A DNA stretch of 48,162 nucleotides from Cloacibacillus sp. (lineage in GTDB: Bacteria; Synergistota; Synergistia; Synergistales; Synergistaceae), in the NCBI GenBank assembly GCA_036655895.1, contig JAVVPF010000025.1, positions 1 through 48,162 on the forward strand, written 5' to 3'. The translations under genes were made by a program, and so were the position numbers. A model generated the notes under the pieces. The model searched no databases and had not been told where the DNA came from. It saw nothing but the letters and a program-made list of their open reading frames with translations. Shown one piece after another: positions 34,927 through 48,162 of the stretch (the first letter of the stretch is position 1; every line of letters starts with the position of its first letter).

Positions 34927-36093
34927 TCAGTTGCTGAAGGCGGTAAATGAAAGCATCAGGCCGCCGCAGGTATTGTTGTTGTCGCTTTCGTAGCCGTACT
35001 CTCCGAAGGTAAATTCAACGATGAACGGCACACCGTCTGCCTCGCGCTTGACGGCTTCGGCCACCTCGCCGATGCGGTCTCCGATGCCGGCGCGTCTGCC
35101 GCCGCAGTGTACCAGGTGATAGGCCGCGGGCTTCGCCCCCGCCTTTTCCCTGAGAGCGCGCAGCGTCTCTCCCGCAGAGGCCACCAGCTCGTCCACCGTC
35201 GCCTCCATGCGGATGACGCATGTTTTTTCCGCGAGGTTGTTGCCTACCGCCATCGAGCCGTCCGCGTTGCCGTTCATCGGGTGGCGAATGGCCACCAGGT
35301 CGCCGAGCCTGTCTTTGACGCCAAGAGGCGACGTGACGCAGGTGACCAGCAGGTTTGCTCCCGTTACGGCCTCTTTGCCGCAGCCGAGCCACTTAGCGAA
35401 CTTTTCCGTCGCCGGCTCTCCGTCTATTTCAACGAGAGTCCTGCTGCCGGAGGTCTTTGTGATTACGCCGAAGTCGTTCGTCTCGCGGTAGGCGCCCGTG
35501 AAAAGGTTCGTCATTTTGACGTCGCCGTAGAAAAAGGCGACTACGAGGCCGTCCGCGAAGTTTTTATCGCCAGCGTACAGCTTCCATTCCCCGGAGATCG
35601 AATTGTCGGCGGCGCTGCCGCCGAAGAAGGGAACGCGGCCTATGACGGAGCTTATGCCTTTTAAATAAAATTCTTCTTCCGCGGGAGAGGCTGCCATGTA
35701 GAAAAATTTAGGAGCGCAGTCCATCTGCGCCGCCTTCATAGCCGCAAGCGCCACAGCGCGCCCGGTAGCCACGGCGTCCGCTCCGCGTTCCGACGCAGCG
35801 ACCCCAACTTTCATATCCTTGTCCGCGAAAGCCATTACGCCGACAAAGCCGTCGTCTGAGGAGACGTAGCCGTCGGGCGTGATTATGCCGGTGAACGAGG
35901 TATTGCCGAAAGCTGGAACTCCGGGAAGAGCCTCTTTGACGCCATTCATCATTTCCGCAATGTCATATCCGCAGCTTCCGTAAACAAAGGCCGCCTTCAC
36001 GCCGTCCAAATTTTTGGCGGCGGAGGCCGCAGCCTCTTTTCCAGCCTCTTTTGCGGATTTCAGTACGCTTGAACCAACATTAGCCTGTAACAT
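34927..36093 (-). CDS. Free-standing FIST-domain protein
   Basis: 388 residues containing FIST_N (about 25-215: AAFVYGSCGYDIAEMMNGVK, FGNTSFTGIITPDGYV, VPFFGGSAADNS) and FIST_C (about 220-380: AVGNNLAEKTCVIRM, GGLMLSFTAFSN). FIST is a small-ligand sensor unit, thought to bind amino acids, and usually sits in chemotaxis, kinase or cyclase proteins. Here there is no output domain, signal peptide or membrane span. AGGAGGG lies seven bases before the ATG. It is the first gene of an operon with an aldehyde dehydrogenase. It may act as a ligand carrier, an adaptor or an enzyme rather than a sensor. Confidence 0.82.
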   Translation of the reverse strand: MLQANVGSSVLKSAKEAGKEAAASAAKNLDGVKAAFVYGSCGYDIAEMMNGVKEALPGVPAFGNTSFTGIITPDGYVSSDDGFVGVMAFADKDMKVGVAASERGADAVATGRAVALAAMKAAQMDCAPKFFYMAASPAEEEFYLKGISSVIGRVPFFGGSAADNSISGEWKLYAGDKNFADGLVVAFFYGDVKMTNLFTGAYRETNDFGVITKTSGSRTLVEIDGEPATEKFAKWLGCGKEAVTGANLLVTCVTSPLGVKDRLGDLVAIRHPMNGNADGSMAVGNNLAEKTCVIRMEATVDELVASAGETLRALREKAGAKPAAYHLVHCGGRRAGIGDRIGEVAEAVKREADGVPFIVEFTFGEYGYESDNNNTCGGLMLSFTAFSN

Positions 36094-36496: not shown

Positions 36497-39436
36497 TTGA
36501 AGAATAAAATTTTTATTTTTTTAATTCCCGTCCTGCTGCTGCTCAATGTGGCGCGAGCCTCGGCTGATAACCTTTTTCTTGCCGACTACAATCAGGTTTT
36601 ATACAATTCAGAATCGGGCATGGAGGCAAACGAGGCAAACGACGTCTGCCAAACCTCCGACGGATATATATGGGTCGCCACTTACAGCGGGCTTATGCGT
36701 TTCGACGGAGTCAAATTCCAGCGTTTCAACACCAAAGCAGACGAATTTACGGCAAAAAGCGCGACGACTCTCTTTGAGGACAGCCGCAAACGCCTCTGGG
36801 TCGGCACCAACGACAAAGGGCTCTTCGTGCGTGAAAACGGCCGTTTCCGCCATATCGAAGACGCCTCAGGCGGCGGCTTCAACACAGTACGCGCGCTCGC
36901 GGAGGACGCGGCCGGGCGTATATACTTTGGCGCTGGCAGCGGCGTCGGCGTCGTTTCTGAAAAGGGCCTCGTGCGCGTCGGCATGGGAGAATGGGACTCC
37001 TCCTTCATCCTTGACATGGGCGCTGCGCCGGACGGAAGCGTCTGGGCCGTCGCGCGCACAGGAGAACTGTTCATCCTGCGCGGCGGAACGCTTGAACGCC
37101 GTTTCGCGCAGAAGGAACTGGGCGGACACGGCGTCATCAGCATCCTGCAACATTCCTCCGGCACAATGTACGGAGGCCTCTCCGACGGCGGGCTTCTGCA
37201 AATGACCTATACCGGCGGCGCGCTTACGACGCGGCTGATAGAGACGCCCGGCATGAGCAGCGTCAACGGCCTTTTTGAAGACCGGTCGGGGCGGCTGTGG
37301 CTCTGCGCCGACAACGGCCCTGCCTATTTCGACGCCGATTTTAAATTCCACAAAGTGGACGGCTGCCGGCTCAACAGCTCTCTTGAACGCATCCTCCAGG
37401 ACTACGAGGGGCAGTACTGGCTTGCCTCCTCGCGTCAGGGGATGCTGCAGCTTTCAAGGAATAAATTCACCGATATAAACTTCGCGCTCGGTGTTCCGGC
37501 AGGCGTCGTCAACGCCGCTCTTGCCGAAGAGGGACGCCTTTATATAGGCAGCGACGCTGGGCTTTTCATCGCCGATAAAAACTACCGATTCATCGAAACG
37601 CCGTATACGAAAGCGCTCGCCGGAAAGCGCGTGCGTCACCTCATGCGCGATTCAAAAGGAAATCTCTGGATAAGCGTTTACTCGACCGGCGACGGTCTCA
37701 TGCGCGTGAAGCCCGACGGCTCTGTGCGGATATTCTCGAAGGCCGACGGTATGCCCAACAATAAAATACGAATGACGATGGAACGCGCAAACGGCGATGT
37801 CGTGGCCGCCACAAACGGAGGCGGCGCCGTCATCCGCGGCGACAAAGTGGTGCAGACGATAGGCGCGCGCGAAGGCCTGACGAACCTCACCGTCCTCACA
37901 CTCTGTGAGGACGGCGACGGCGCACTCTGCATAGGCACCGACGGCGGCGGCATCTTTGTGATGAAGGACGGGAGCTTAAAAAACTACACGGCGCGCGACG
38001 GCCTACACGCGGACGTCATCCTCAGGCTCCTTTACGACAAACAGCACAAAGGCCTTTGGGTGAGCGCCGGAAACGGCCTCTGCTTTGTGGACGCGAACGG
38101 CAAGATACGGCAGATAGAGGTCAACGCCCCGATAACAAGCGGCATATTCGACATAGTTGAAAACTCAAACGGAAAGCTCGTGCTGCTTGCCGACACCGGC
38201 GTCCATATCGCTGACAAAAAGGCGCTCTTTGCCGGAGACGATGTGAAATGGGAATCCTACATGCACCGCGACGGCCTGCACTCCACAGTGACCGCCAACT
38301 CATGGAACCAGTACGGCGGCTCGGGCAAATTATACCTCTGCGGCACGAACGGGCTTTACTCAATAAACTTAGACAACGTGCAGAAAAACAAACACAGGCC
38401 GAAACTTGCGGTCAACCGCGTCACGGCCGACGGAAAAGTCTTTGAGAACACAACGAAAATAGAGATACCCAGCACAACGAAAAGGCTTACGGTAGACCTC
38501 GCCGTGCTCAGCTACATGAATCCCGACTACAACCGGGGACAGTACCGTTTAAAAGGCTTTGACAAAGAAGACAACTACGGCGGCCCAAAAGAACTCTCTA
38601 ACATAAGCTACACAAACCTCAAAGGCGGCACCTACACGCTTGAGTTCACCGCAGAAAACAGCGACGGCGTCACAAGCACGGCACCGCTTGAAATAATCAT
38701 AGTAAAAGAGCGCGCTTTCCACGAGCGGCCCGCAGTCGTCGTCATGGCGCTGCTTTTGCTTGCCGCGCTCATCTTCCTCCTCACGCGCTGGTATTATCAA
38801 AGACGCGCCAAAGAGCTTGAGCGCAGACAGGAAGAACTGCGCGCGATCGTGGCCCAGGCCTTCTCCGCGATAGCCGACACCATCGACGCGAAGGATACAT
38901 ATACGCGCGGCCACTCTACCCGAGTCGCGGAATATTCTGTCGCAGTAGCAAAAGAGATGGGCTTTTCGCAGCAGCAGCTCGACAACCTCTACTACACGGC
39001 GCTGCTGCACGACATCGGGAAAATAGGCATCCCCGACAACATCTTGAACAAGCCCGCAAAACTGACGGACGAGGAATACGAGATAATGAAGCAGCACCCG
39101 GCAAAGGGCGGCCACATCCTCCGCAACATAACGATAATAGACGAAATAAAGGACGGCGCCGCCTACCACCATGAAAAATACGACGGCACGGGATACAACG
39201 AAGGTCTCAAAAGAGAGGCCATCCCGCTCATAGCGCGCATAATATGCGTAGCCGACGCACTTGACGCAATGGCCTCCACTCGTCCCTACAGAACTGCGCG
39301 CAGCCTGGACTACATTCTCTCAGAGCTTGAAAAAAACATCGGCACGCAGTTTGACCCGCAAATAGCCCGAATAATGATAGAGCTGCTGAAAAACGGAAAA
39401 CTGAAACTCTACCAGGACGGGGAAGAGGAACGCTGA
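36497..39436 (+). CDS. Two-component-type beta-propeller sensor with HD-GYP output
   Basis: 979 residues from TTG, with GAGGTGA six bases upstream. Order: signal peptide (1-24); periplasmic beta-propeller of Reg_prop repeats (about 40-640, recurring pattern LWVGTNDKGLF, LWISVYS, LCIGTDGGG); Y_Y_Y domain (about 660-740); membrane span (about 748-768); coiled coil; and an HD-GYP domain (about 785-975) with HSTRVAEYS, LLHDIGKIGIPD (His838, Asp839) and YHHEKYDGTGYNEGL. The output is probably a c-di-GMP phosphodiesterase. The usual GYP is GYN here. It resembles hybrid polysaccharide-sensor kinases with the kinase part replaced by HD-GYP. The ligand is unknown. Confidence 0.9.
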   Translation: MKNKIFIFLIPVLLLLNVARASADNLFLADYNQVLYNSESGMEANEANDVCQTSDGYIWVATYSGLMRFDGVKFQRFNTKADEFTAKSATTLFEDSRKRLWVGTNDKGLFVRENGRFRHIEDASGGGFNTVRALAEDAAGRIYFGAGSGVGVVSEKGLVRVGMGEWDSSFILDMGAAPDGSVWAVARTGELFILRGGTLERRFAQKELGGHGVISILQHSSGTMYGGLSDGGLLQMTYTGGALTTRLIETPGMSSVNGLFEDRSGRLWLCADNGPAYFDADFKFHKVDGCRLNSSLERILQDYEGQYWLASSRQGMLQLSRNKFTDINFALGVPAGVVNAALAEEGRLYIGSDAGLFIADKNYRFIETPYTKALAGKRVRHLMRDSKGNLWISVYSTGDGLMRVKPDGSVRIFSKADGMPNNKIRMTMERANGDVVAATNGGGAVIRGDKVVQTIGAREGLTNLTVLTLCEDGDGALCIGTDGGGIFVMKDGSLKNYTARDGLHADVILRLLYDKQHKGLWVSAGNGLCFVDANGKIRQIEVNAPITSGIFDIVENSNGKLVLLADTGVHIADKKALFAGDDVKWESYMHRDGLHSTVTANSWNQYGGSGKLYLCGTNGLYSINLDNVQKNKHRPKLAVNRVTADGKVFENTTKIEIPSTTKRLTVDLAVLSYMNPDYNRGQYRLKGFDKEDNYGGPKELSNISYTNLKGGTYTLEFTAENSDGVTSTAPLEIIIVKERAFHERPAVVVMALLLLAALIFLLTRWYYQRRAKELERRQEELRAIVAQAFSAIADTIDAKDTYTRGHSTRVAEYSVAVAKEMGFSQQQLDNLYYTALLHDIGKIGIPDNILNKPAKLTDEEYEIMKQHPAKGGHILRNITIIDEIKDGAAYHHEKYDGTGYNEGLKREAIPLIARIICVADALDAMASTRPYRTARSLDYILSELEKNIGTQFDPQIARIMIELLKNGKLKLYQDGEEER

Positions 39437-39519
39437 TTTTTTGCACTTGTCGATTGCGAAAGTAACCGAGAGTTTGTCTCTGCATATAGATTAGAATGTC
39501 AATGCACCATTTCTGGAAG

Positions 39520-40425
39520 CTATGGTAATTTTACTGTGAAATCGTATTCTTTGAATTCAAACATATCAGAAGCGATAATCAGCGCTTCGTAGCGTTTGAG
39601 ACGCTCTTTTATGTTGGCGTTGTCTTTTTGGTACATCCTCATTAGCATGGCGTGGATCAAAGCTACTGCAGACGAGGCCGGTTCTACAAATAGAAAATAT
39701 TTTAAAGGGGTTATCAAAACATGGTTTGCATGCTGGACGATGGGGGACATTTGACTGTCTGTTACAGCAATTATAGGTATACCTTGGGTATGTAAGGTCG
39801 ATGCTATTTTCAATGTTTCTTTCGGATACCTAGGGTAGGTAAAGACAAGTGCGACAGATTTTTCACAGAGGAACTCCATTGCTCCGTAGAATGCCATATC
39901 TCTTTGCTTTACAACAAAGACTCTCTCTCTAAAAATCGTTAGGTAATCGGCAAGATATTGAACTAAATACCCTTGGGTGGGGCCTCCTACGAGCACCACG
40001 GTATCCGCTTGAATAAGCCTGTCTACACATTGGTCAAAAATTTGGGGGTCAATGCTAAGCATGGTTTCGTCAATAAGATCTTTTTCTAAAGTCAGGATCC
40101 TATGGACTACATGCTCGTCAGATCCAACGCAAGAAATTTGACGGAACGCACTTGTTTGCGTTGCCTCTTGTGTTTGTATTCTCAAATCGAGTTGGAACGC
40201 TGAAAAGCTACTATAGCCTATAGCATAAACGAACCTAGTCAAAGTGGCTTCGCTGACATGAGCTTTTTTGGCAATTTGGGGGGCATTCAGGAGTGCCACC
40301 TCATAGATGTTGTCACATATAAACTTCCCGATGAAGGTTTGTTTTTTAGTTAGATTAGGTGCGGCTTCGATAATCTTTTCGCTTATTGTTTTCATTAGAC
40401 AGCTCTTGCATAATGCAAGATACAT
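39520..40425 (-). CDS. RpiR family transcriptional regulator (HTH plus SIS)
   Basis: 301 residues. The N-terminal HTH_6 domain (about 12-90) has LTKKQTFIGKFI, APQIAKKAHVSEATLTRFVY and GYSSFSAFQLDL. The C-terminal SIS domain (about 130-265) has TVVLVGGPTQGYLVQYLADY and LVFTYPRYPKETLKIA. RpiR proteins usually sense phosphosugars; here the divergent genes encode methyl transfer and uptake, so the ligand is open. AGGAAGG lies four or five bases before the ATG. A later ATG (40395) has only a weak site. GAAATNATTTC palindromes in the 363-base divergent region are its likely operators. Confidence 0.88.
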   Translation of the reverse strand: MYLALCKSCLMKTISEKIIEAAPNLTKKQTFIGKFICDNIYEVALLNAPQIAKKAHVSEATLTRFVYAIGYSSFSAFQLDLRIQTQEATQTSAFRQISCVGSDEHVVHRILTLEKDLIDETMLSIDPQIFDQCVDRLIQADTVVLVGGPTQGYLVQYLADYLTIFRERVFVVKQRDMAFYGAMEFLCEKSVALVFTYPRYPKETLKIASTLHTQGIPIIAVTDSQMSPIVQHANHVLITPLKYFLFVEPASSAVALIHAMLMRMYQKDNANIKERLKRYEALIIASDMFEFKEYDFTVKLP

Positions 40426-40488
40426 AAGGCCTTCCTTCCTAATAATTATCCATTGTGAAATTTAATAGAAAATTATTTTTAAAATTAT

Positions 40489-40499
40489 GAAATCATTTC
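40489..40499. promoter_or_regulatory. RpiR operator candidate, site 1
   Basis: GAAATCATTTC, a perfect palindrome with a one-base centre, 64 bases before the rpiR start and probably within its promoter. The same pattern recurs near the mttB-like promoter. Confidence 0.5.
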
Positions 40500-40610
40500 T
40501 TCAGCAAGTATATATTCTATCATTGTTGTTTTAAGTACACAACTCTTATTTACTACATACGTGTCTATATTAGGACGTCAATCTCTTATATTTTTAGAAT
40601 AAGCGTCCAA

Positions 40611-40633
40611 AATATTTTTTGTATAAAAATATT
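40611..40633. promoter_or_regulatory. AT-rich inverted repeat in the RpiR/MttB divergent region
   Basis: AATATTTTT-N5-AAAAATATT, perfect, in the middle of the divergent region. Its AT-only composition makes chance more likely than for the GAAAT sites; it may be an upstream promoter element or protein-binding site. Confidence 0.3.
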
Positions 40634-40692
40634 ATAATTATAACAGCCTCTATAGAAGAAAAATTATACTAGATAGCGTTGAGTTCATCCTA

Positions 40693-40720
40693 TTGACAAG
40701 AAAGCTAAAGGGAATATAAT
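40693..40720 (+). promoter_or_regulatory. Consensus promoter of the methyltransferase-TRAP operon
   Basis: TTGACA (40693-40698), 16 bases, TATAAT (40715-40720): both hexamers are perfect. Transcription should start near 40727 and leave a leader of about 60 bases, within which two palindromic sites lie. Confidence 0.8.
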
Positions 40721-40723
40721 GAA

Positions 40724-40762
40724 GATATTATTTCATAAATCAAATAACAAAGAAATTATTTC
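40724..40762. promoter_or_regulatory. RpiR operator candidates, sites 2 and 3
   Basis: GATATTATTTC (40724-40734, one mismatch) covers the predicted start site. GAAATTATTTC (40752-40762, perfect) lies 28 bases further down, before the ribosome site. With site 1 they define GAAATNATTTC. Binding here would block initiation or elongation. Confidence 0.5.
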
Positions 40763-40788
40763 TTAAATAATTGAAAGGGATGGAATTC

Positions 40789-42201
40789 GTGAGACCAAAG
40801 ATAAAATTATTGGATGACGAAGAAATCAAATATATTGATCGTATTTCGAGAGATATATTAAAAGAAATTGGCTTTATTTGTGAAGATGATGAAGCAATGT
40901 CAATATTTGCAAAGGCTGGGGCGCGTGTACTGATAAAAGATAAGAAAGTTTTTCTAACCAATCATATTATTGACCAAGTTATTGAAACTTTCAATCCTAT
41001 GGTGGAACTATATGGGCGCAACGGGCGTGAAACTCTTCATGTTGGAGGAGATAATCTGTATTTTGGAACCACAGGCTTTGCTACCAATTATCTTGATTTA
41101 GAAAACGGAGGGTATCGTCCGTCAACTAGTAAAGATGTCGTAGATATAATGAAGCTCTGTGACGTTTTGGATCCGCCGGATTATATTCTTCCTAGTGTTG
41201 GAGCTACAGATGTGGAGCCTGAATATGTGGATCTGTATGAGTTTAAGGCGGGAATGCTTTATACCTCCAAGCATATTCAAACGCAGGCAAATGATCGTAA
41301 AAATGTTAAGAAAATAATTAAAATGGCGGAGTTTATGGCTGGTAGCAGTGAGGAACTGAGGAAGGCGCCATTTTTTTCGTTCCTAGTAACATTGACCAGT
41401 CCTTTGCATCAGCGCAGCGACTCCATGCAGCTCATTATAGAGTCCGCGCAGAATAATATACCTCTCTTTATTGAATCTGGGCCTATGGCAGGGGCGACGT
41501 CGCCAGTGACTTTAGCTGAAACTGTCGCTATAGCAAATGCAGAACTTTTAAGCAGTATGATTCTGGCTAAACTGGTAAACCCCACGGTTCCAACTATATA
41601 TGCAAGCTGGGCAAGAGCCATCAATATGCAAAACGGTTATGTGAGTGTTGGTTGTCCGGAGTTTGGTATGTTGCGTGTGGCAACAACTCAGATGGGAAAA
41701 TATTATGGGCTCCCAACCGGAGGCGGCGGAAACCTGACTGACTCTTTATCTCTTGATCCGCAGCTTGGAGCGGAACAGTGTTCGACTAGTATGTTGCCTG
41801 CGATGGCTGGCATTAATATGATCCAAGGCATGGGGCTAATCGCCGGTATGAATGCTGTAAGTGCGGAAGCGCTTGTCATTGCGTCTGAAATTGCAAATTA
41901 TGTAAAAAGAGTACATAGAGGAATTGATGTCAATAAGGATTTTAAGGGGGTTGAGCTTATTAAAAATATTGGCCCTTCTGGCGATTTCTTAACATCGGAA
42001 CACACTTTAGAAAATTTCAAAAAAGAACTTTGGATGCGGAGCATATTCGACTGTTCTGCCGTTAAAAACGAAAACAGTCAACTGGAATCTGGTGTGCTGA
42101 GTAAAACGGTTATGAAAACTAAGAAACTAATGAAAAGATATGTTCCTATTACTTTGCCCGAGGATGCAGAGACTGTGCTTGATAATATTATCCGCAGCTA
42201 A
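40789..42201 (+). CDS. MttB-family corrinoid-dependent methyltransferase, non-pyrrolysine
   Basis: 470 residues from GTG (MRPKIKLLDDEE), with AAAGGG nine bases before; the ATG at 40780 abuts that site. The protein belongs to the trimethylamine methyltransferase superfamily (YFGTTGFATNYLDLENGGYR, SGPMAGATSPVTLAE, YASWARAINMQNGYVSVG, GLPTGGGGNLTDS). There is no in-frame amber codon, so it is a member of the non-Pyl group, which demethylates quaternary amines such as glycine betaine, proline betaine, carnitine or butyrobetaine. It transfers a methyl group from the substrate to the Co(I) corrinoid protein encoded next. The substrate is not predictable from sequence. Confidence 0.88.
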   Translation: MRPKIKLLDDEEIKYIDRISRDILKEIGFICEDDEAMSIFAKAGARVLIKDKKVFLTNHIIDQVIETFNPMVELYGRNGRETLHVGGDNLYFGTTGFATNYLDLENGGYRPSTSKDVVDIMKLCDVLDPPDYILPSVGATDVEPEYVDLYEFKAGMLYTSKHIQTQANDRKNVKKIIKMAEFMAGSSEELRKAPFFSFLVTLTSPLHQRSDSMQLIIESAQNNIPLFIESGPMAGATSPVTLAETVAIANAELLSSMILAKLVNPTVPTIYASWARAINMQNGYVSVGCPEFGMLRVATTQMGKYYGLPTGGGGNLTDSLSLDPQLGAEQCSTSMLPAMAGINMIQGMGLIAGMNAVSAEALVIASEIANYVKRVHRGIDVNKDFKGVELIKNIGPSGDFLTSEHTLENFKKELWMRSIFDCSAVKNENSQLESGVLSKTVMKTKKLMKRYVPITLPEDAETVLDNIIRS

Positions 42202-42255
42202 CGATTATAGAATTTTTTACCTATCATATAAAAAAGAAAGTGTGGAGTTACAAGG

Positions 42256-42894
42256 ATGGATAGTAAAGTTCTCAGGTCTATTGCAGAGGCAGTTATAGAT
42301 GGCTCCGTCAAACAGGTTGCCACTTTAGTCAATGAGGCGGTTTGTGCTCAAATCCCGGCTGGGAAAATCCTGAATGACGGGTTGATTTCAGGAATGAACC
42401 AGGTTGGAGAACTTTTTAAAGAGGGCGAAATGTTTGTGCCCGAGGTTTTAGTTTCAGCAAAAGCGCTACAAAACGGGGTTGATATTATTCGTAGTCTGCT
42501 TGTAGAGGAGGGGGTAAAAGCGGCAGGCAAAATTCTGACGGTGACGGTAGAGGGAGACCTTCATGATATTGGCGTTAAGCTTGTCGGAATGATGTTAGAA
42601 GGGGCCGGTTTTGAGGTGGTCAATATTGGTGTGGATGTCACCGTTGCCAAAATTGTTGAGAAGGTCAAAGAAATAAGGCCGAATATTCTTGGACTATCTG
42701 CGATGCTCACAACTACGATGGTAAATATGAAGGATGTGATGGATGCTCTTAAGGAAGAAGGATTACTTGATGATTTAAAAGTAATGATAGGCGGTGCTCC
42801 TGTGTCTCCTCTGTATGCTGAAAAGATTGGGGCGGTGTATTCTGCCGATGCAAGTGACGCTGTAACTGTAGCGAGAAATATTCTGCCGCGTTAG
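42256..42894 (+). CDS. Methyltransferase cognate corrinoid protein (MttC/MtgC-like)
   Basis: 212 residues. The N-terminal helical cap (about 1-88) has GLISGMNQVGELFKEGEMFVP. The Rossmann-like B12 domain has VEGDLHDIGVKLVGMML, with the DxHxxG signature at Asp101-His103-Gly106; His103 is the lower cobalt ligand. Further cobalamin contacts lie in LGLSAMLTTTM and MIGGAPVS. It accepts the methyl group from the MttB-family protein and hands it to a second methyltransferase. A GGAGTTA-like site precedes the ATG. No RamA-type reductive activase is present in the window, so it must be supplied elsewhere. Confidence 0.93.
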   Translation: MDSKVLRSIAEAVIDGSVKQVATLVNEAVCAQIPAGKILNDGLISGMNQVGELFKEGEMFVPEVLVSAKALQNGVDIIRSLLVEEGVKAAGKILTVTVEGDLHDIGVKLVGMMLEGAGFEVVNIGVDVTVAKIVEKVKEIRPNILGLSAMLTTTMVNMKDVMDALKEEGLLDDLKVMIGGAPVSPLYAEKIGAVYSADASDAVTVARNILPR

Positions 42895-42985
42895 GCGATA
42901 CTTCTCAGAGATTAATCTAATCTGTTCTTTTAATGTAATGGTTTAAGTACTAGCAAATTATTGAAGACAAAAGGAGAGATTGTGT

Positions 42986-44014
42986 ATGAAAAAATATCTT
43001 ATAAGAGTAATGGCGATATTTACTTTTAGCTTTATGTTTGCCTCCTGTTTTTCACTTGCTGCGGAGGCTAAGGTGCTTAAAATGTATGCTCCGTACCCTG
43101 CGGATAGTTTTATTACACAAGGATTAGTCTCTGCGGTGGAGCAGATAAAAAAAGAGACGAAAGGGAAAATATCAATAAAAATTTTCCCTGGTGGGCAACT
43201 TGGAGGATATGAGGAAGCGGTAGAAGAAGTTCGTCAAGGAACAATAGACTTGGCTTCAACATGGCTTACGAAGCGTTTTGACCCGCGCCTTGATATGCTT
43301 AATCTGCCAGGTTATGCTCCTTTGGGGTATAAGCAGCTCGCAAAAATTTGTTTTGCAGTAGATTCTCCCTTTGCTACAAAAATCGAATCCGTTCTTCAGT
43401 CAATTAATATTGTGAGTCTTGGCCCGTGGCCGGAACCTTATGCGAATCTTATTTTTGCCAAAGGAAAACGCCCTGAAAAATTCATCGGCTTTGAAAATAA
43501 AAAAAGAAGCATAAGGGTACCCGGAATGCCTCTTTATAGAGATTCTTATGTGGCTATGGGGTATCAGACTCTGACGATGGATGTATCGGAGCTTTGGAAT
43601 GCTATGCAGACTGGGCAGGTTGACGGCGCCTCTGGACAAACGCTTGAAAGCACATATCTTCTTGGTAAGGATATTGTAAAACATGTAGATTACAACAGGG
43701 CAGTCTGTCCTCCTTCGTGGCTTATCATTAATAAAGACCTCTGGTCCTCATTCACCAAAGAGCAGCAGAAGATAGTATCTAAGGCGTTTAATACTTGGTC
43801 GCTTAAAACGCTTGATTTGATGGCTAAAAAAGACATCGAGTATGCGAAACTTCTGAAAGATTATGGAATTGAAGTGGCAGAATATAATGACAAATATTAT
43901 TCTGAACTAGCGGCATATCTCAGAAAGACAGTTTGGCCGAAATACTATGATGTGTTTGGTAAAGATTTCCTTGTCAATCTTGATAAGATTGTAAATAATA
44001 TGAAAAATAAATAA
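42986..44014 (+). CDS. dctP: TRAP transporter substrate-binding protein, DctP family
   Basis: 342 residues from the ATG with AAGGAGAG seven bases before. The signal peptide (YLIRVMAIFTFSFMFASCFS) is cleaved near AEA-K. DctP marks: FPGGQLGGYEEAVEEVRQGTIDLA, the ligand-binding Arg in RSIRVPGMPLYRD and GQVDGASGQTLES. The conserved Arg normally pairs with a carboxylate (or sulfonate) of the ligand. As the transporter is encoded in the same unit as the methyltransferases, it probably brings in their methylated substrate, which would then bear an acidic group. Confidence 0.93.
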   Translation: MKKYLIRVMAIFTFSFMFASCFSLAAEAKVLKMYAPYPADSFITQGLVSAVEQIKKETKGKISIKIFPGGQLGGYEEAVEEVRQGTIDLASTWLTKRFDPRLDMLNLPGYAPLGYKQLAKICFAVDSPFATKIESVLQSINIVSLGPWPEPYANLIFAKGKRPEKFIGFENKKRSIRVPGMPLYRDSYVAMGYQTLTMDVSELWNAMQTGQVDGASGQTLESTYLLGKDIVKHVDYNRAVCPPSWLIINKDLWSSFTKEQQKIVSKAFNTWSLKTLDLMAKKDIEYAKLLKDYGIEVAEYNDKYYSELAAYLRKTVWPKYYDVFGKDFLVNLDKIVNNMKNK

Positions 44015-44031
44015 CCAGTAGAAACATATGG

Positions 44032-44074
44032 TAAAAGCATGCCTGAAGTCGAGTAACCTTTGGGTATGCTTTTA
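44032..44074 (+). other. Intercistronic hairpin after dctP
   Basis: TAAAAGCAT (44032-44040) pairs with ATGCTTTTA (44066-44074), extendable by three pairs, around a loop of about 20 bases. There is no strong T-run after it. It probably stabilises the binding-protein message or partly ends transcription before dctQM. Confidence 0.5.
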
Positions 44075-44102
44075 TGTTTAAAAGAAAGCCGGGGTGATTG
44101 TG

Positions 44103-44630
44103 GTGAAAAAAATAAAAGCAACAAATCAAATCATGGAATCAAAAATATGGAAAAGCCTACTGGTGATCCAAAGAGGCATCATGTTGCTCACTTCTTTGGT
44201 GATGCTGATGATATTGGGAGCTGTTGTTGTTGCTAGATATGTTTTTCATATGGATATTTTTGGTTATGATGAGATAGTTCTTGTCGATTCTTTCTGGATG
44301 TATTTTATAGGGGCTTCCTATGCAATGTATGAGGGCGGTCATATTAAAGCGGACATCTTATCTTCGTTGCTCAAGCCGAGAAAACGTGCATTGATGAAGG
44401 TTGTGGCGGGGATATTTCAAACTTTGGTGAATATTATTTTTAATGTTTTTGCCTACAATTTAATTGTAAGATCAATAAAAATATGGCCAGTAACCTCTTC
44501 ATGGAATATTCCATTTCTGATTCCACAGATGGCCTTATTTTTAGGTTTTACATTAATGTCATTTTATCTAATCATCTACACAGCCAAAGACCTCAATATA
44601 TATATTGGTATAGGTAAGGAGGAGGATTAA
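44103..44630 (+). CDS. dctQ: TRAP transporter small permease, DctQ
   Basis: About 175 residues, four spans, the DctQ topology. Several GTG codons (44094, 44100, 44103) could start it; I take 44103 because GGGGTGA lies six bases before. Characteristic DctQ features are the first-span VMLMILGAVVVARYVF and the conserved loop YAMYEGGHIKAD. It partners the large permease encoded two bases downstream. Confidence 0.9.
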   Translation: MKKIKATNQIMESKIWKSLLVIQRGIMLLTSLVMLMILGAVVVARYVFHMDIFGYDEIVLVDSFWMYFIGASYAMYEGGHIKADILSSLLKPRKRALMKVVAGIFQTLVNIIFNVFAYNLIVRSIKIWPVTSSWNIPFLIPQMALFLGFTLMSFYLIIYTAKDLNIYIGIGKEED

Positions 44631-44632
44631 CC

Positions 44633-45931
44633 GTGGCGATTTTTATAGCCATTTTGATTATTATAGCCGGCTTGCTGCTTGGAATGTATATACAATATGC
44701 CTTTATGGCGGCGGCGTTATTTTTGATAGTGACTTTAGATTATCAGACGAGTTTTTTGCTCACGTATGGATATAGTATAGTCAATTCCTTAATATTGATT
44801 TGTGTGCCCCTTTTTATAGCCGTCGGTTTGCTCATGAATAAAAGTGGCATCGGTAAATGTTTGGTTGATTTTGTCGACATTTTTGTTGGAAGAATAAAAT
44901 GCGGGCTTGCTATAGTTGCCATTGTTGCTTCTGGAGCCTTTGGCTCCATTGCAGGCAGTAGTCTTGCGACATTGTCATGTATTGGTTCCATCATGAAGCC
45001 GAGGTTTGAAGAGGCCGGATATGATAAGGGGTTTACTGCTGCATTGATTACCTGCGCTGCGCCGCTGGGACTCTTGATCCCTCCAAGCGCGCACATGGTA
45101 CTCTATTCTTGGGCGGGGCGCCAGTCATTGCTGGCCTGTTTTCTTGCTACTGTTGGCCCCGGTATCATGTTAATGATCATGCTTTCAATTACAAGTTACT
45201 TTATCCTCAGAAATAACCCAAATATTAAAATCAGACAACCAATGAGTTATGCTGATTTTATTGGCATGGCTTCAGAAAGGACGTTTTCTGCCATTCCTGC
45301 TCTTGCTATGCCAGTCATTGTGCTCGGAGGTATTTATGGAGGTTATTTCACCCCAACGGAAGCTGCGGCTGTTGCCGTAATATATTCGATTCCTGTCGGT
45401 TTTTTTGTTTATAAAAAATTGACCCTGAAGGGGCTATGTGAGACCTTGATTGAGACGGCATCGACGACTGGTGTTATTATGGTCATGATATTTTGCATAA
45501 TGATGCTTAGCCGGATTTACATTATGGAAGATTTACCGGGAATGATCACTAAAACGCTAAAAGAATTTTCAGACAGCAAATATGTTATTTTGCTAGGTAC
45601 TAATATTATTCTTTTAATAATAGGGATGATTATGGATGATACCAGTGCGATTCTCCTATGTACGCCGATATTCATTCCGATTCTCCAAAACTTTGGTGTA
45701 GACCCGATACATTTTGCGGCGATAATCGGGGTGAATATAGGAATCGGTCTCCTTTCCCCTCCGACCGCGCCATGTCTATATTTTGGTTCAGGCGTGATGA
45801 AGACGGCGGTTGCAGATATGCTGCCTATGACGCTAAAATTTATTGTATTTGCGTGGCTTCCTACATTATTAGCGGTAACTTATTTTCCAGAAATGGCCCT
45901 TTGGCTTCCGAGACATGTTCTTGGATGGTAA
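44633..45931 (+). CDS. dctM: TRAP transporter large permease, DctM
   Basis: 432 residues from GTG, with GGAGGAGG upstream. About eleven or twelve spans. Marks: FGSIAGSSLATLSCIGSIM near residue 103, LLIPPSAHMVLYSWAG, GGIYGGYFTPTEAAAVAV and GMIMDDTSAILLCTPIFIPI. These are the standard DctM motifs. It works with DctP and DctQ to import the ligand by sodium symport. The C-terminus ends 38 bases before the UroD-type gene. Confidence 0.95.
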   Translation: MAIFIAILIIIAGLLLGMYIQYAFMAAALFLIVTLDYQTSFLLTYGYSIVNSLILICVPLFIAVGLLMNKSGIGKCLVDFVDIFVGRIKCGLAIVAIVASGAFGSIAGSSLATLSCIGSIMKPRFEEAGYDKGFTAALITCAAPLGLLIPPSAHMVLYSWAGRQSLLACFLATVGPGIMLMIMLSITSYFILRNNPNIKIRQPMSYADFIGMASERTFSAIPALAMPVIVLGGIYGGYFTPTEAAAVAVIYSIPVGFFVYKKLTLKGLCETLIETASTTGVIMVMIFCIMMLSRIYIMEDLPGMITKTLKEFSDSKYVILLGTNIILLIIGMIMDDTSAILLCTPIFIPILQNFGVDPIHFAAIIGVNIGIGLLSPPTAPCLYFGSGVMKTAVADMLPMTLKFIVFAWLPTLLAVTYFPEMALWLPRHVLGW

Positions 45932-45969
45932 TGCTTAGTATTGAAATTAGAAGAAAGCAGGAAACTAAG

Positions 45970-47337
45970 ATGAGTGATGGTAAAGATTTACTTTTCAAGG
46001 CGCTTCGCTGTGAAGAAGTCGATAGAATTCCGTGGATCCCTTTCACGGGAGTACATTGTGCAAAGTTACTTGGAGTTGATGCTGAAACATACCTTAAATC
46101 TCCTCAGAATATCGTGGCGGGTGTTAAGCTGGCTGCTGAAAAATATTTTGCAGATGGTGTGTGCTCTGTTTTTGACCTTCAAATTGAGGCTGAAGCCTTG
46201 GGGTGCGGGTTGAAATGGTCGAAAAACAATCCGCCCGCTGTAGCTACACATGTACTTGATACGAAAAAAATCGGAGAACTTCCTGAATTTACTAAAAAAC
46301 TTGGGCGTATTGAGAATGCTCTTAATGTTACCGCTACGTTAAAAAAAGAAATTGGAGATGATGTGGCTATCTTGGGACTAATATGCGGCCCGTTTACCTT
46401 AGCGTTACATCTCGCAGGGGCTAAATTCCTCACGGATATGATTGAAGAACCGGAATATGCAAACGAGATACTATTGTTCTGCGCAGAGATATCTCGTAAA
46501 ATGTCCGCTTGGTATGTGGAGGCTGGAGCTGATGTAGTTGCGCTTGTAGACCCAATGACGAGCCAGATATCGCCAAGACACTTTAAAAAATATGTTACAA
46601 CGGCCGTGGCTCCTTCGATTCAGGAGGTAAAGTCAAGGGGAGCGTTCGTAACTCTCTTTTGTTGTGGAGACGCAACGAAAAATATTGAGCTTATGATGCA
46701 ATGTGAACCGGATGGTATTGCTTTTGATGAACAAGTGAGCGTGGTGATGTCTCGGGAGCTGTCTGCGAAATACAACGTAGCGATAGAGGGGAACCTGCAC
46801 CTTACTACAACATTGCTTTTCGGGAATCCGCTGGAATGCGTGGCGGATGCAAAAAAATGTTTAAAAGAAGGAGGGCATAAAGGTTACATTCTCTCGCCGG
46901 GCTGTGACCTGCCATTTGACACCCCGGAATATAATCTTGAAGCAGTGGGCAGATACGCTGTGCTTGGCGAAGAACCTTCTAAAAGCAGCGGATTTTCATC
47001 GCTTGAAGAAGCGCTTTCCGGTTGCAATGCCGCCGCTGAAGGGTTTGAGGATGTGACTATAGAACCAGGCAGGATATTTATTGAGGTGGTCACACTTGAC
47101 TCAGAAGGATGTGCTCCGTGTCAGTACATGATGGAATCTCTATATAGAATCAAGGATAAGTATGGAGATAAACTATTTTATCGTGAAACTCTGATAAAAA
47201 GCCTCGCCGGCATTAAACGCGTAAGTGCCATAGGAGTGAAAAATCTTCCCTCTATGTTGATGAATAATGAAATAGTTTTTGATAATATAGTTCCTACAGA
47301 CAATGAACTCATGAAAGAGATAAATAAAAGATTGTAG
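45970..47337 (+). CDS. UroD/MtaA-type methyltransferase fused to a thioredoxin-like domain
   Basis: 455 residues from the ATG with AGGAA six bases before; the open frame extends upstream inside dctM but has no start signal. Residues 1-340 form the uroporphyrinogen-decarboxylase fold of MtaA/MtbA methylcobalamin:thiol methyltransferases. In these enzymes zinc is held by an HxC motif and a distal Cys. Here the HxC position reads LFCCG (residues 229-233), so His appears to be replaced by Phe, with Cys232 kept. The distal Cys312 is in PGCDLP. Residues 365-455 look thioredoxin-like: a CAPC motif at 381-384 and a likely cis-proline in VKNLPSM (Pro427). It presumably takes the methyl group from the corrinoid protein; the acceptor is unknown. 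Confidence 0.82.
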   Translation: MSDGKDLLFKALRCEEVDRIPWIPFTGVHCAKLLGVDAETYLKSPQNIVAGVKLAAEKYFADGVCSVFDLQIEAEALGCGLKWSKNNPPAVATHVLDTKKIGELPEFTKKLGRIENALNVTATLKKEIGDDVAILGLICGPFTLALHLAGAKFLTDMIEEPEYANEILLFCAEISRKMSAWYVEAGADVVALVDPMTSQISPRHFKKYVTTAVAPSIQEVKSRGAFVTLFCCGDATKNIELMMQCEPDGIAFDEQVSVVMSRELSAKYNVAIEGNLHLTTTLLFGNPLECVADAKKCLKEGGHKGYILSPGCDLPFDTPEYNLEAVGRYAVLGEEPSKSSGFSSLEEALSGCNAAAEGFEDVTIEPGRIFIEVVTLDSEGCAPCQYMMESLYRIKDKYGDKLFYRETLIKSLAGIKRVSAIGVKNLPSMLMNNEIVFDNIVPTDNELMKEINKRL

Positions 47338-47410
47338 ATTTTTTGGGGTATAAGCATACACTGGCTGAAAGGTAAAAGTTTTAATATTGAACCGACTAGG
47401 TGGGCGTCTG

Positions 47411-47440
47411 GTCCATCAACATCGGTTTTTATTGATGGAC
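47411..47440. other. Hairpin between the methyltransferase operon and the last gene
   Basis: GTCCATCAA and TTGATGGAC form a 9-bp perfect stem around a 12-base loop. Neither strand has a T-run after it, so it is not a standard terminator, though it lies between convergent genes. Confidence 0.4.
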
Positions 47441-47489
47441 ATAGTTTGCAAGATTCAAATGAATAATTGCACAAAGATATGTGTGTTAC

Positions 47490-48162
47490 TTATTGTTTCA
47501 GATTGTTTAGTTTATTCGCATAATAAACATCCATATCTACAACGCCAGGGATATGATAAAGAGAGGCTTGCTCGTTGACTTCAACGTCTATCACATTGCC
47601 GATTTCTTCAAATGCGACGTGCTCCCATCTCTCTTTCATATAGAGCTTAAAATGCTTATTGTCATAACTTCTATCCCAAGCTTCAGGGTACTGATGGTGC
47701 AATTCTGTGACGGAAGGGCTTTTTTGATCGAAAGAGAAGAAAGCGCCCATTGCGCAACTGTCAGGTTTGAGATAACGGGAAACGGCCTCGAGCGAATACC
47801 CTTTATGGAATAAAGCGTATTCGTTGGCAGAATCAAAATCTATATACAAATCCACAGAGTTTTCTTTTAGCGGGAGCAGGCTGCTTGCAGTAGCCACATA
47901 TAGAATGTCTCGTTCGAGGCCGAGTTTATCTATTAAACCTTTATATATAGCAACGAGTTCCGGGTATTTGTCGGTGATGATGTATAGTGCGTCAGCGGGC
48001 ATCTCCTCAATATTTGCATGGCAGAAACAATAATTATTTATAAAATCCTCTAATATGACTTTGCCAGCCATATTCTGTGACTTTAGTTTTTCAAGAAGCC
48101 AATGATAAGATTTTTGCATATATGAAACCAAAGTGGGATTCATCAGCCTGTAGCAGTTTCTT
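47490..48162 (-). CDS. Partial SAM-methyltransferase-like protein, N-terminus outside the window
   Basis: An open frame runs to the window edge without an upstream stop, so the ATG at 48143 may be internal (the preceding codons read RNCYRL). The visible 217 residues from that ATG resemble the methyltransferase part of a class I Rossmann protein: KVILEDFINNYCF, then ALYIITDKYPELV, ATASSLLPLKENSVDLYIDF and YLKPDSCAMGAFFSF. The glycine-rich SAM loop is degenerate or absent, so catalysis is doubtful. An N-terminal HTH domain fused to such a domain is one possibility. It is convergent with the methyltransferase operon and shares its AT-rich composition. Confidence 0.6.
   Translation of the reverse strand, partial: RNCYRLMNPTLVSYMQKSYHWLLEKLKSQNMAGKVILEDFINNYCFCHANIEEMPADALYIITDKYPELVAIYKGLIDKLGLERDILYVATASSLLPLKENSVDLYIDFDSANEYALFHKGYSLEAVSRYLKPDSCAMGAFFSFDQKSPSVTELHHQYPEAWDRSYDNKHFKLYMKERWEHVAFEEIGNVIDVEVNEQASLYHIPGVVDMDVYYANKLNNLKQ

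Follow-up and report, generated by a model that had tools for sequence, protein, structure and literature searches.

A TRAP-linked MttB operon of Cloacibacillus sp. encodes a UroD-thioredoxin fusion as candidate second methyltransferase

Gene content of the locus

We analysed a stretch of 48,162 nucleotides from Cloacibacillus sp. (Synergistota, family Synergistaceae; contig JAVVPF010000025.1 of assembly GCA_036655895.1; called the window in the following), which is a complete contig within a 2.9-Mb genome of 160 contigs and ends where the contig ends. It contains a block in which a divergent RpiR regulator gene is followed by the genes of an MttB-family methyltransferase without pyrrolysine (Pyl), a corrinoid protein, the TRAP transporter subunits DctP, DctQ and DctM and a UroD-type methyltransferase, all assigned with Pfam and NCBIfam (Table 1). 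The last enzyme possesses a thioredoxin-like tail and is named UroD-Trx here. This tail, the most informative part of the block, had been overlooked in a first-pass annotation, which a model had made from the letters alone, although all genes named there are present at about the positions it gave. The six plus-strand genes from MttB to UroD-Trx are separated by gaps of 54, 91, 79, 2 and 38 bp, the TRAP importer is complete with all three subunits (PF03480, PF04290 and PF06808), and the block has a GC content of 40.2% compared to 55.5% in the remaining window, in agreement with its earlier description as AT-rich.

Families and layout also support the proposal that the block is a corrinoid-dependent demethylation module equipped with a TRAP importer of its own. 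The attribute self-contained had to be given up, as the block has no activase and an orthologous RpiR-MttB-corrinoid-TRAP block in another genus (genome G167) occurs without the fused UroD. That there is no activase is true of the window, because it stops at the contig end, but RACE-type activases are encoded on two other contigs of the genome (L011:17059-18651 and L014:949-2571). A scan of the window for cobalamin riboswitches gave no Rfam family at threshold.

Table 1. Genes and predicted control elements of the block (window positions).
Feature	Position	Strand	Evidence or remark
RpiR/MurR-type regulator, HTH_6 + SIS	39520-40425	-	Pfam PF01418, PF01380; divergent from operon
Operator-like palindrome GAAATCATTTC, RpiR-proximal	40489-40499	+	match to GAAATNATTTC motif
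Predicted sigma-70 promoter TTGACA-16-TATAAT of operon	40693-40720	+	12/12 consensus match
Operator-like GATATTATTTC, directly 3' of -10	40724-40734	+	match to GAAATNATTTC motif
Operator-like GAAATTATTTC	40752-40762	+	28 bp past GATATTATTTC site; same 28-bp spacing in G170
Non-pyrrolysine MttB-family substrate:corrinoid methyltransferase, GTG start	40789-42201	+	PF06253 E 2.1e-81, residues 9-474
Corrinoid-binding methyl carrier protein	42256-42894	+	PF02310 + PF02607; TIGR02370 194 bits
DctP solute-binding protein of TRAP importer	42986-44014	+	PF03480; Arg177 kept
DctQ small TRAP membrane subunit	44094-44630	+	PF04290
DctM large TRAP membrane subunit	44633-45931	+	PF06808; TIGR00786 above cut-off
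UroD-type methyltransferase + C-terminal thioredoxin-like domain (UroD-Trx)	45970-47337	+	PF01208; NF047660; AlphaFold2 model; fold match MtaA 4ay7

The UroD-thioredoxin fusion

The C-terminal ~85 residues of the UroD protein match the thioredoxin-like family NF047660 (E 5e-9; residues 474-557 of the 559-aa frame scanned) and carry a GCAPC motif (GC381-A-P-C384); further motifs of the protein are F230-C231-C232-G and SPG-C312. An AlphaFold2 model calculated with 81 relatives as input (pLDDT 93.6, pTM 0.92) shows a beta-alpha-beta thioredoxin-like layout past the barrel. The best fold match of the barrel itself is the coenzyme M (CoM) methyltransferase MtaA (4ay7) with a TM-score of 0.87 on the target length and 26% identity, in line with PF01208 and with the annotated UroD-type second methyltransferase. 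The His-Cys-Cys zinc ligands of MtaA align with Phe230, Cys232 and Cys312, three positions that are invariant in 81/81 fusion sequences. UroD-Trx does not have the zinc triad of MtaA/MtbA-type (SCMT) enzymes, the first ligand His being a Phe.

One acceptor enzyme and several donor modules

The genome encodes five MttB and five URO-D proteins, and each of the latter carries the thioredoxin-like tail. Four fusions belong to MttB modules with TRAP, TRAP, BCCT or other carriers, and the fifth is found with a non-Pyl MtmB-like protein, a corrinoid protein, NhaC, an aminotransferase and RACE; BCCT carriers are present in the modules of contigs C38 and C11. The other UroD-Trx copies are 61-83% identical to the one in the window, whereas the other four MttBs share only 25-29% with its MttB. 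In the tree the four MttB-linked UroD-Trx copies form one clade (plus one relative) and the MtmB-linked copies another. Thus, the fusion was duplicated together with the donor modules, as would be expected of an enzyme that has the same task in each of them, and the sequence comparison shows variable front ends combined with one constant acceptor enzyme in the form of near-copies of UroD-Trx.

Two neighbouring observations concern these modules. A non-Pyl MtmB-family protein (L014 7277-8668 and orthologues) is 86-94% identical across many Synergistota, each time close to UroD-Trx. The second TRAP module of the genome (L012 1813-11320) combines MttB, corrinoid protein and UroD-Trx with an octopine/nopaline dehydrogenase and with what appears by eye to be an MmgE/PrpD protein, so maybe its substrates are N-methylated opines.

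In order to find other exits for the methyl group, 11 genomes with the fusion, the window's genome included, were scanned (Synergistota, Negativicutes and Bacteroidota), and none of them has a member of the MtrH family (PF02007) at the cut-off. Their pterin-domain hits are one dihydropteroate synthase (DHPS) and one MetH-sized protein each, except for one additional weak hit in genome G170 and two additional hits in G021, one of them DHPS-like and one weak. The window's genome has the pterin-binding domain only in DHPS and a MetH-type protein, and neither a stand-alone pterin-type methyltransferase nor an MtqA-like protein was found in it. As MtrH-type and stand-alone pterin-type methyltransferases are missing there, UroD-Trx is the only dedicated enzyme found for taking the methyl group out. 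The earlier suggestion that the UroD-type enzyme may use a thiol is therefore strengthened, both by the thioredoxin fusion and by the absence of MtrH.

Distribution of the fusion

A scan of GTDB species-representative genomes with the peptide CAPCQYM led to at least 357 confirmed fusion loci, the best 80 of which were inspected. These 80 include loci from Synergistota, Bacillota, Bacteroidota, Planctomycetota, Verrucomicrobia, Lentisphaerae and KSB1. A CobW-type GTPase is encoded in the fetched stretch at 57 of the 80 loci, at 43 of them on the same strand and ~2.3 kb or less downstream, and is likely a metal-insertion partner. Three Negativicutes loci lie inside pyrrolysine gene clusters with MtmB, and in Synergistota the fusion also occurs within MtmB-like clusters. 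At several Bacteroidota loci MttB is missing, and the fusion is accompanied by a corrinoid protein, by a homocysteine methyltransferase domain and by an activation-domain protein.

Since the scan peptide selects for itself, CAPCQYM is invariant in this set by construction, and only the Synergistota set based on a hidden Markov model (HMM) can be used to judge conservation. Searching 188 Synergistota genomes in this way cleanly separated fusions (at least 297 bits) from plain URO-D proteins (at most 192 bits). Only a G037 tail fragment of 100 aa, located at a contig end, falls outside this separation. All 18 of 18 fusions retain CxxC, the divergent CAAC of L143 included. L143 (G136:C257), with SFYCG and CAAC, has diverged strongly from other UroD-Trx proteins, forms a long branch and possibly represents a second subfamily. 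Our search of the open-access literature found no paper describing the fusion, its CobW link or the link between TRAP and MttB.

The MttB protein, its relatives and the substrate

The MttB gene of the window has no in-frame TAG, and Leu316 aligns to the Pyl position of 7xcl. Placement in an MttB tree had been proposed as a check; in our tree of 19 rows, in which MtpB, MtcB, MtyB and MthB were left out, the protein groups with those of G167 and of a third genus, G170 (support 100/99), and MtgB and Pyl-MttB are found elsewhere. It is 28% identical to MtgB, and the proposed betaine contacts of MtgB, Tyr94, Asn199, Arg309 and His345 (PMC6855144, where the residue numbering is one less than in our alignment), are not kept but correspond to Phe, Thr, Gly and Gln. 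Most characterised non-Pyl MttB members have quaternary amines with an acid group as substrates (PMC12155760), a habit that fits a carboxylate-binding TRAP system. Arg177 in the IRVPG motif of DctP aligns with IRVQG of 4xfe, so that the carboxylate-binding Arg is kept as had been annotated, although this is a family-wide feature. Solved structures were rejected as a source for the DctP ligand because the best matches (~77 bits) are not diagnostic.

In Synergistota genus g11 (L120 3164-4666, L121 2470-4056, L203-L205) we also saw MttB genes with in-frame TAG in the Pyl-MttB clade, namely in G150 and G154, and these two genomes as well as G146 encode a PylS-like protein, which makes the use of pyrrolysine in Synergistota likely.

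Regarding the six-gene order, whose conservation the first-pass annotation had proposed to examine, G167 keeps RpiR-MttB-corrinoid-DctP-DctQ-DctM (63/70/73/64/56/84% identity to the window) but not the fused UroD. G170 encodes a sister MttB (46%) with RpiR (52%), corrinoid protein, BCCT and RACE, and its closest TRAP orthologues (DctM 78%) are located at a separate locus with UroD-Trx and RACE, without MttB. Both control regions are also related: the 363-bp RpiR-MttB gap of the window contains three GAAATNATTTC sites with at most one mismatch, the G170 region contains three as well, with the 28-bp pair past the promoter, and TTGACA-16-TATAAT occurs there with identical spacing and offset. At least three sites were obtained in 0/5000 and 2/5000 shuffles, respectively, odds that are optimistic as the motif was derived from the tested sequences. 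Because one regulator accompanies TRAP here but BCCT in G170, the ligands are likely to be similar, which points to a betaine-like acid. The conclusion that a TRAP importer means a different substrate was consequently not borne out, and we rejected TRAP as proof of a non-betaine substrate.

The G167 block has a peculiar setting. Two 1037-bp direct repeats of a plain UroD gene (L116, G167:C23, 1123-2159 and 12126-13162; 99.5% identical) flank the AT-rich RpiR-MttB-corrinoid-TRAP block and a glycyl radical enzyme gene, suggesting that the region was inserted or rearranged recently. The glycyl radical enzyme was rejected as a substrate clue, being a 99.9% copy of a gene on contig C20 whose own locus keeps the activase.

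Proposed function and alternatives

We consider it probable that the block is an RpiR-controlled catabolic operon by which a small N-methylated, betaine-like carboxylate is demethylated, the methyl group leaving via UroD-Trx to what is probably a thiol. Judged from family membership, the TRAP system would import the acid, MttB would move one methyl group to the Co(I) of the corrinoid protein and UroD-Trx would take it off the methyl-corrinoid. The acceptor might be a thiol substrate bound at the Cys232/Cys312 site or one of the Cys residues in the thioredoxin-like tail, and activation of the corrinoid would depend on the RACE proteins from other contigs. This proposal is supported by the protein families, the operon layout, the gene order in G167, promoter and operators common with G170, the close similarity of the UroD-Trx paralogues compared to the MttBs, the lack of MtrH, the location of the fusion in the Pyl-MtmB clusters of Negativicutes and the MtmB-like clusters of Synergistota, the MtaA-like fold and Cys232 and Cys312 in 81/81 fusions. 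Several points weigh against it. The Phe that replaces the zinc-ligand His of MtaA in every fusion means that the metal site must differ from that of known S-methyltransferases. The genome encodes MTHFR and FTHFS, which leaves room for folate as acceptor. The G167 block has no fused URO-D but a plain UroD (HNCG motif) nearby, showing that the fusion is not obligatory for the substrate and that the acceptor enzyme is exchangeable. Finally, the substrate is deduced only from transporter type and family habits.

The strongest competitor, which we regard as quite possible although we lean against it, is that the block encodes a betaine demethylase unit of the ordinary kind, except that TRAP replaces the usual BCCT, with neither substrate nor acceptor being unusual beyond paralogue swapping. 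The BCCT next to the sister MttB of G170, under the same regulator and operators, and those in the genome's own C38 and C11 modules fit this explanation well; it is less compatible with an MttB outside the MtgB clade, with predicted contacts F/T/G/Q in place of Y/N/R/H, and with the fused nature and the altered metal site of the acceptor enzyme. UroD-Trx could also be a methyl-corrinoid:tetrahydrofolate methyltransferase in place of MtrH/MtqA, with methyl-tetrahydrofolate oxidised via MTHFR and FTHFS and the thioredoxin domain only keeping the active-site cysteines reduced. Besides the presence of these two enzymes and the lack of another second methyltransferase, the Bacteroidota set around the fusion resembles a split methionine synthase without its pterin part, and MetE from the same superfamily uses methyl-tetrahydrofolate. 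We nevertheless think this rather unlikely, because the nearest characterised fold and sequence is the CoM methyltransferase MtaA, the pair of conserved Cys would go well with a soft (S/Se) ligand and UroD-Trx has no pterin-binding module.

Still less probable is the opposite direction, in which UroD-Trx demethylates a methylthiol, a methylselenol or a thioredoxin-bound methyl and methylates the corrinoid protein, being auxiliary in MttB modules. Mlp proteins do act on methyl-S/Se compounds (PMC10418091), and the Bacteroidota fusions occur with homocysteine methyltransferase and without MttB/MtmB, but the genomes of Synergistota and Negativicutes point the other way, as UroD-Trx is there the UroD-type enzyme that accompanies MttB/MtmB and a further second methyltransferase was not detected. 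That the TRAP genes are mere neighbours unrelated to demethylation, as the G170 TRAP locus without MttB might suggest, is very improbable given the operon order kept in G167 and the 2-91 bp gaps on one strand in the window.

Returning to the proposed thiol-directed operon, it is UroD-Trx, and not the connection to TRAP, that we see as the part worth following. To our knowledge, the methyl destination of known MttB/MtmB systems is folate or CoM. We tentatively suggest, as an idea that could well be wrong, that UroD-Trx represents a novel type of second methyltransferase present in many bacterial phyla, which transfers the corrinoid methyl to a thiol at a CobW-matured Phe-Cys-Cys site. This thiol would be either the Cys of its thioredoxin part or a small thiol that the enzyme reduces and binds. 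If so, it would be a third exit route beside folate (MtrH/MtqA) and CoM (MtaA/MtbA), used by methylamine and betaine demethylases with Pyl as well as without. None of the 11 fusion genomes has an MtrH-type enzyme, and in those from Synergistota and Negativicutes UroD-Trx is the partner of methylamine-type enzymes. Knowing the acceptor would reveal where such bacteria send the methyl groups of betaines and methylamines, and it would assign a function to a fusion confirmed at 357 or more loci of species-representative genomes.

Comparison with known systems

One of the closest known systems is the glycine betaine system MtgBC/MtgA of Desulfitobacterium hafniense (2QNE, 9YCE), which likewise consists of a non-Pyl MttB, a corrinoid protein and a second methyltransferase. 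Apart from its distant MttB, the window differs by having TRAP instead of BCCT and UroD-Trx instead of a methyl-tetrahydrofolate transferase. In Eubacterium limosum several MttB specificities (MtpB, MtcB and MtyB) also feed one kind of acceptor, there through a single MtqC and a single, tetrahydrofolate-dependent MtqA (PMC8604678), whereas every module of the window's genome comes with a separate corrinoid protein and a separate UroD-Trx copy. The CoM methyltransferases MtaA/MtbA (4AY7) share the URO-D fold and the second and third zinc ligands (Cys232, Cys312) with UroD-Trx, which differs in the Phe at the first ligand and in the thioredoxin-like tail; a CoM route would not be expected in this bacterium. 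The Type 1 mlp clusters (PMC10418091) also contain bacterial UroD-type S/Se methyltransferases with a corrinoid protein and RACE. In contrast to them, our block has a single UroD, no Mlp2/Mlp3 pair and no RACE, and UroD-Trx shows Phe-Cys-Cys instead of His-Cys-Cys, the thioredoxin fusion and MttB or MtmB as partner. The Synergistota MtmB-like partner of UroD-Trx (C11 module) belongs to the same Pfam family as MtqB, an archaeal non-Pyl MtmB homologue for tetramethylammonium/choline that is paired with the CoM methyltransferase MtqA (PMC13044021).

Neighbouring genes

The contig end also cuts the gene at 47490-48161 on the minus strand, which has no Pfam/NCBIfam match and by eye resembles the C-terminal part of a class I methyltransferase. 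On the other side, a propeller sensor with a C-terminal HD-GYP-like domain (36497-39436, plus strand) adjoins the block, and a FIST-type sensor protein (34927-36093, minus strand) is encoded just outside of it, both assigned by eye.

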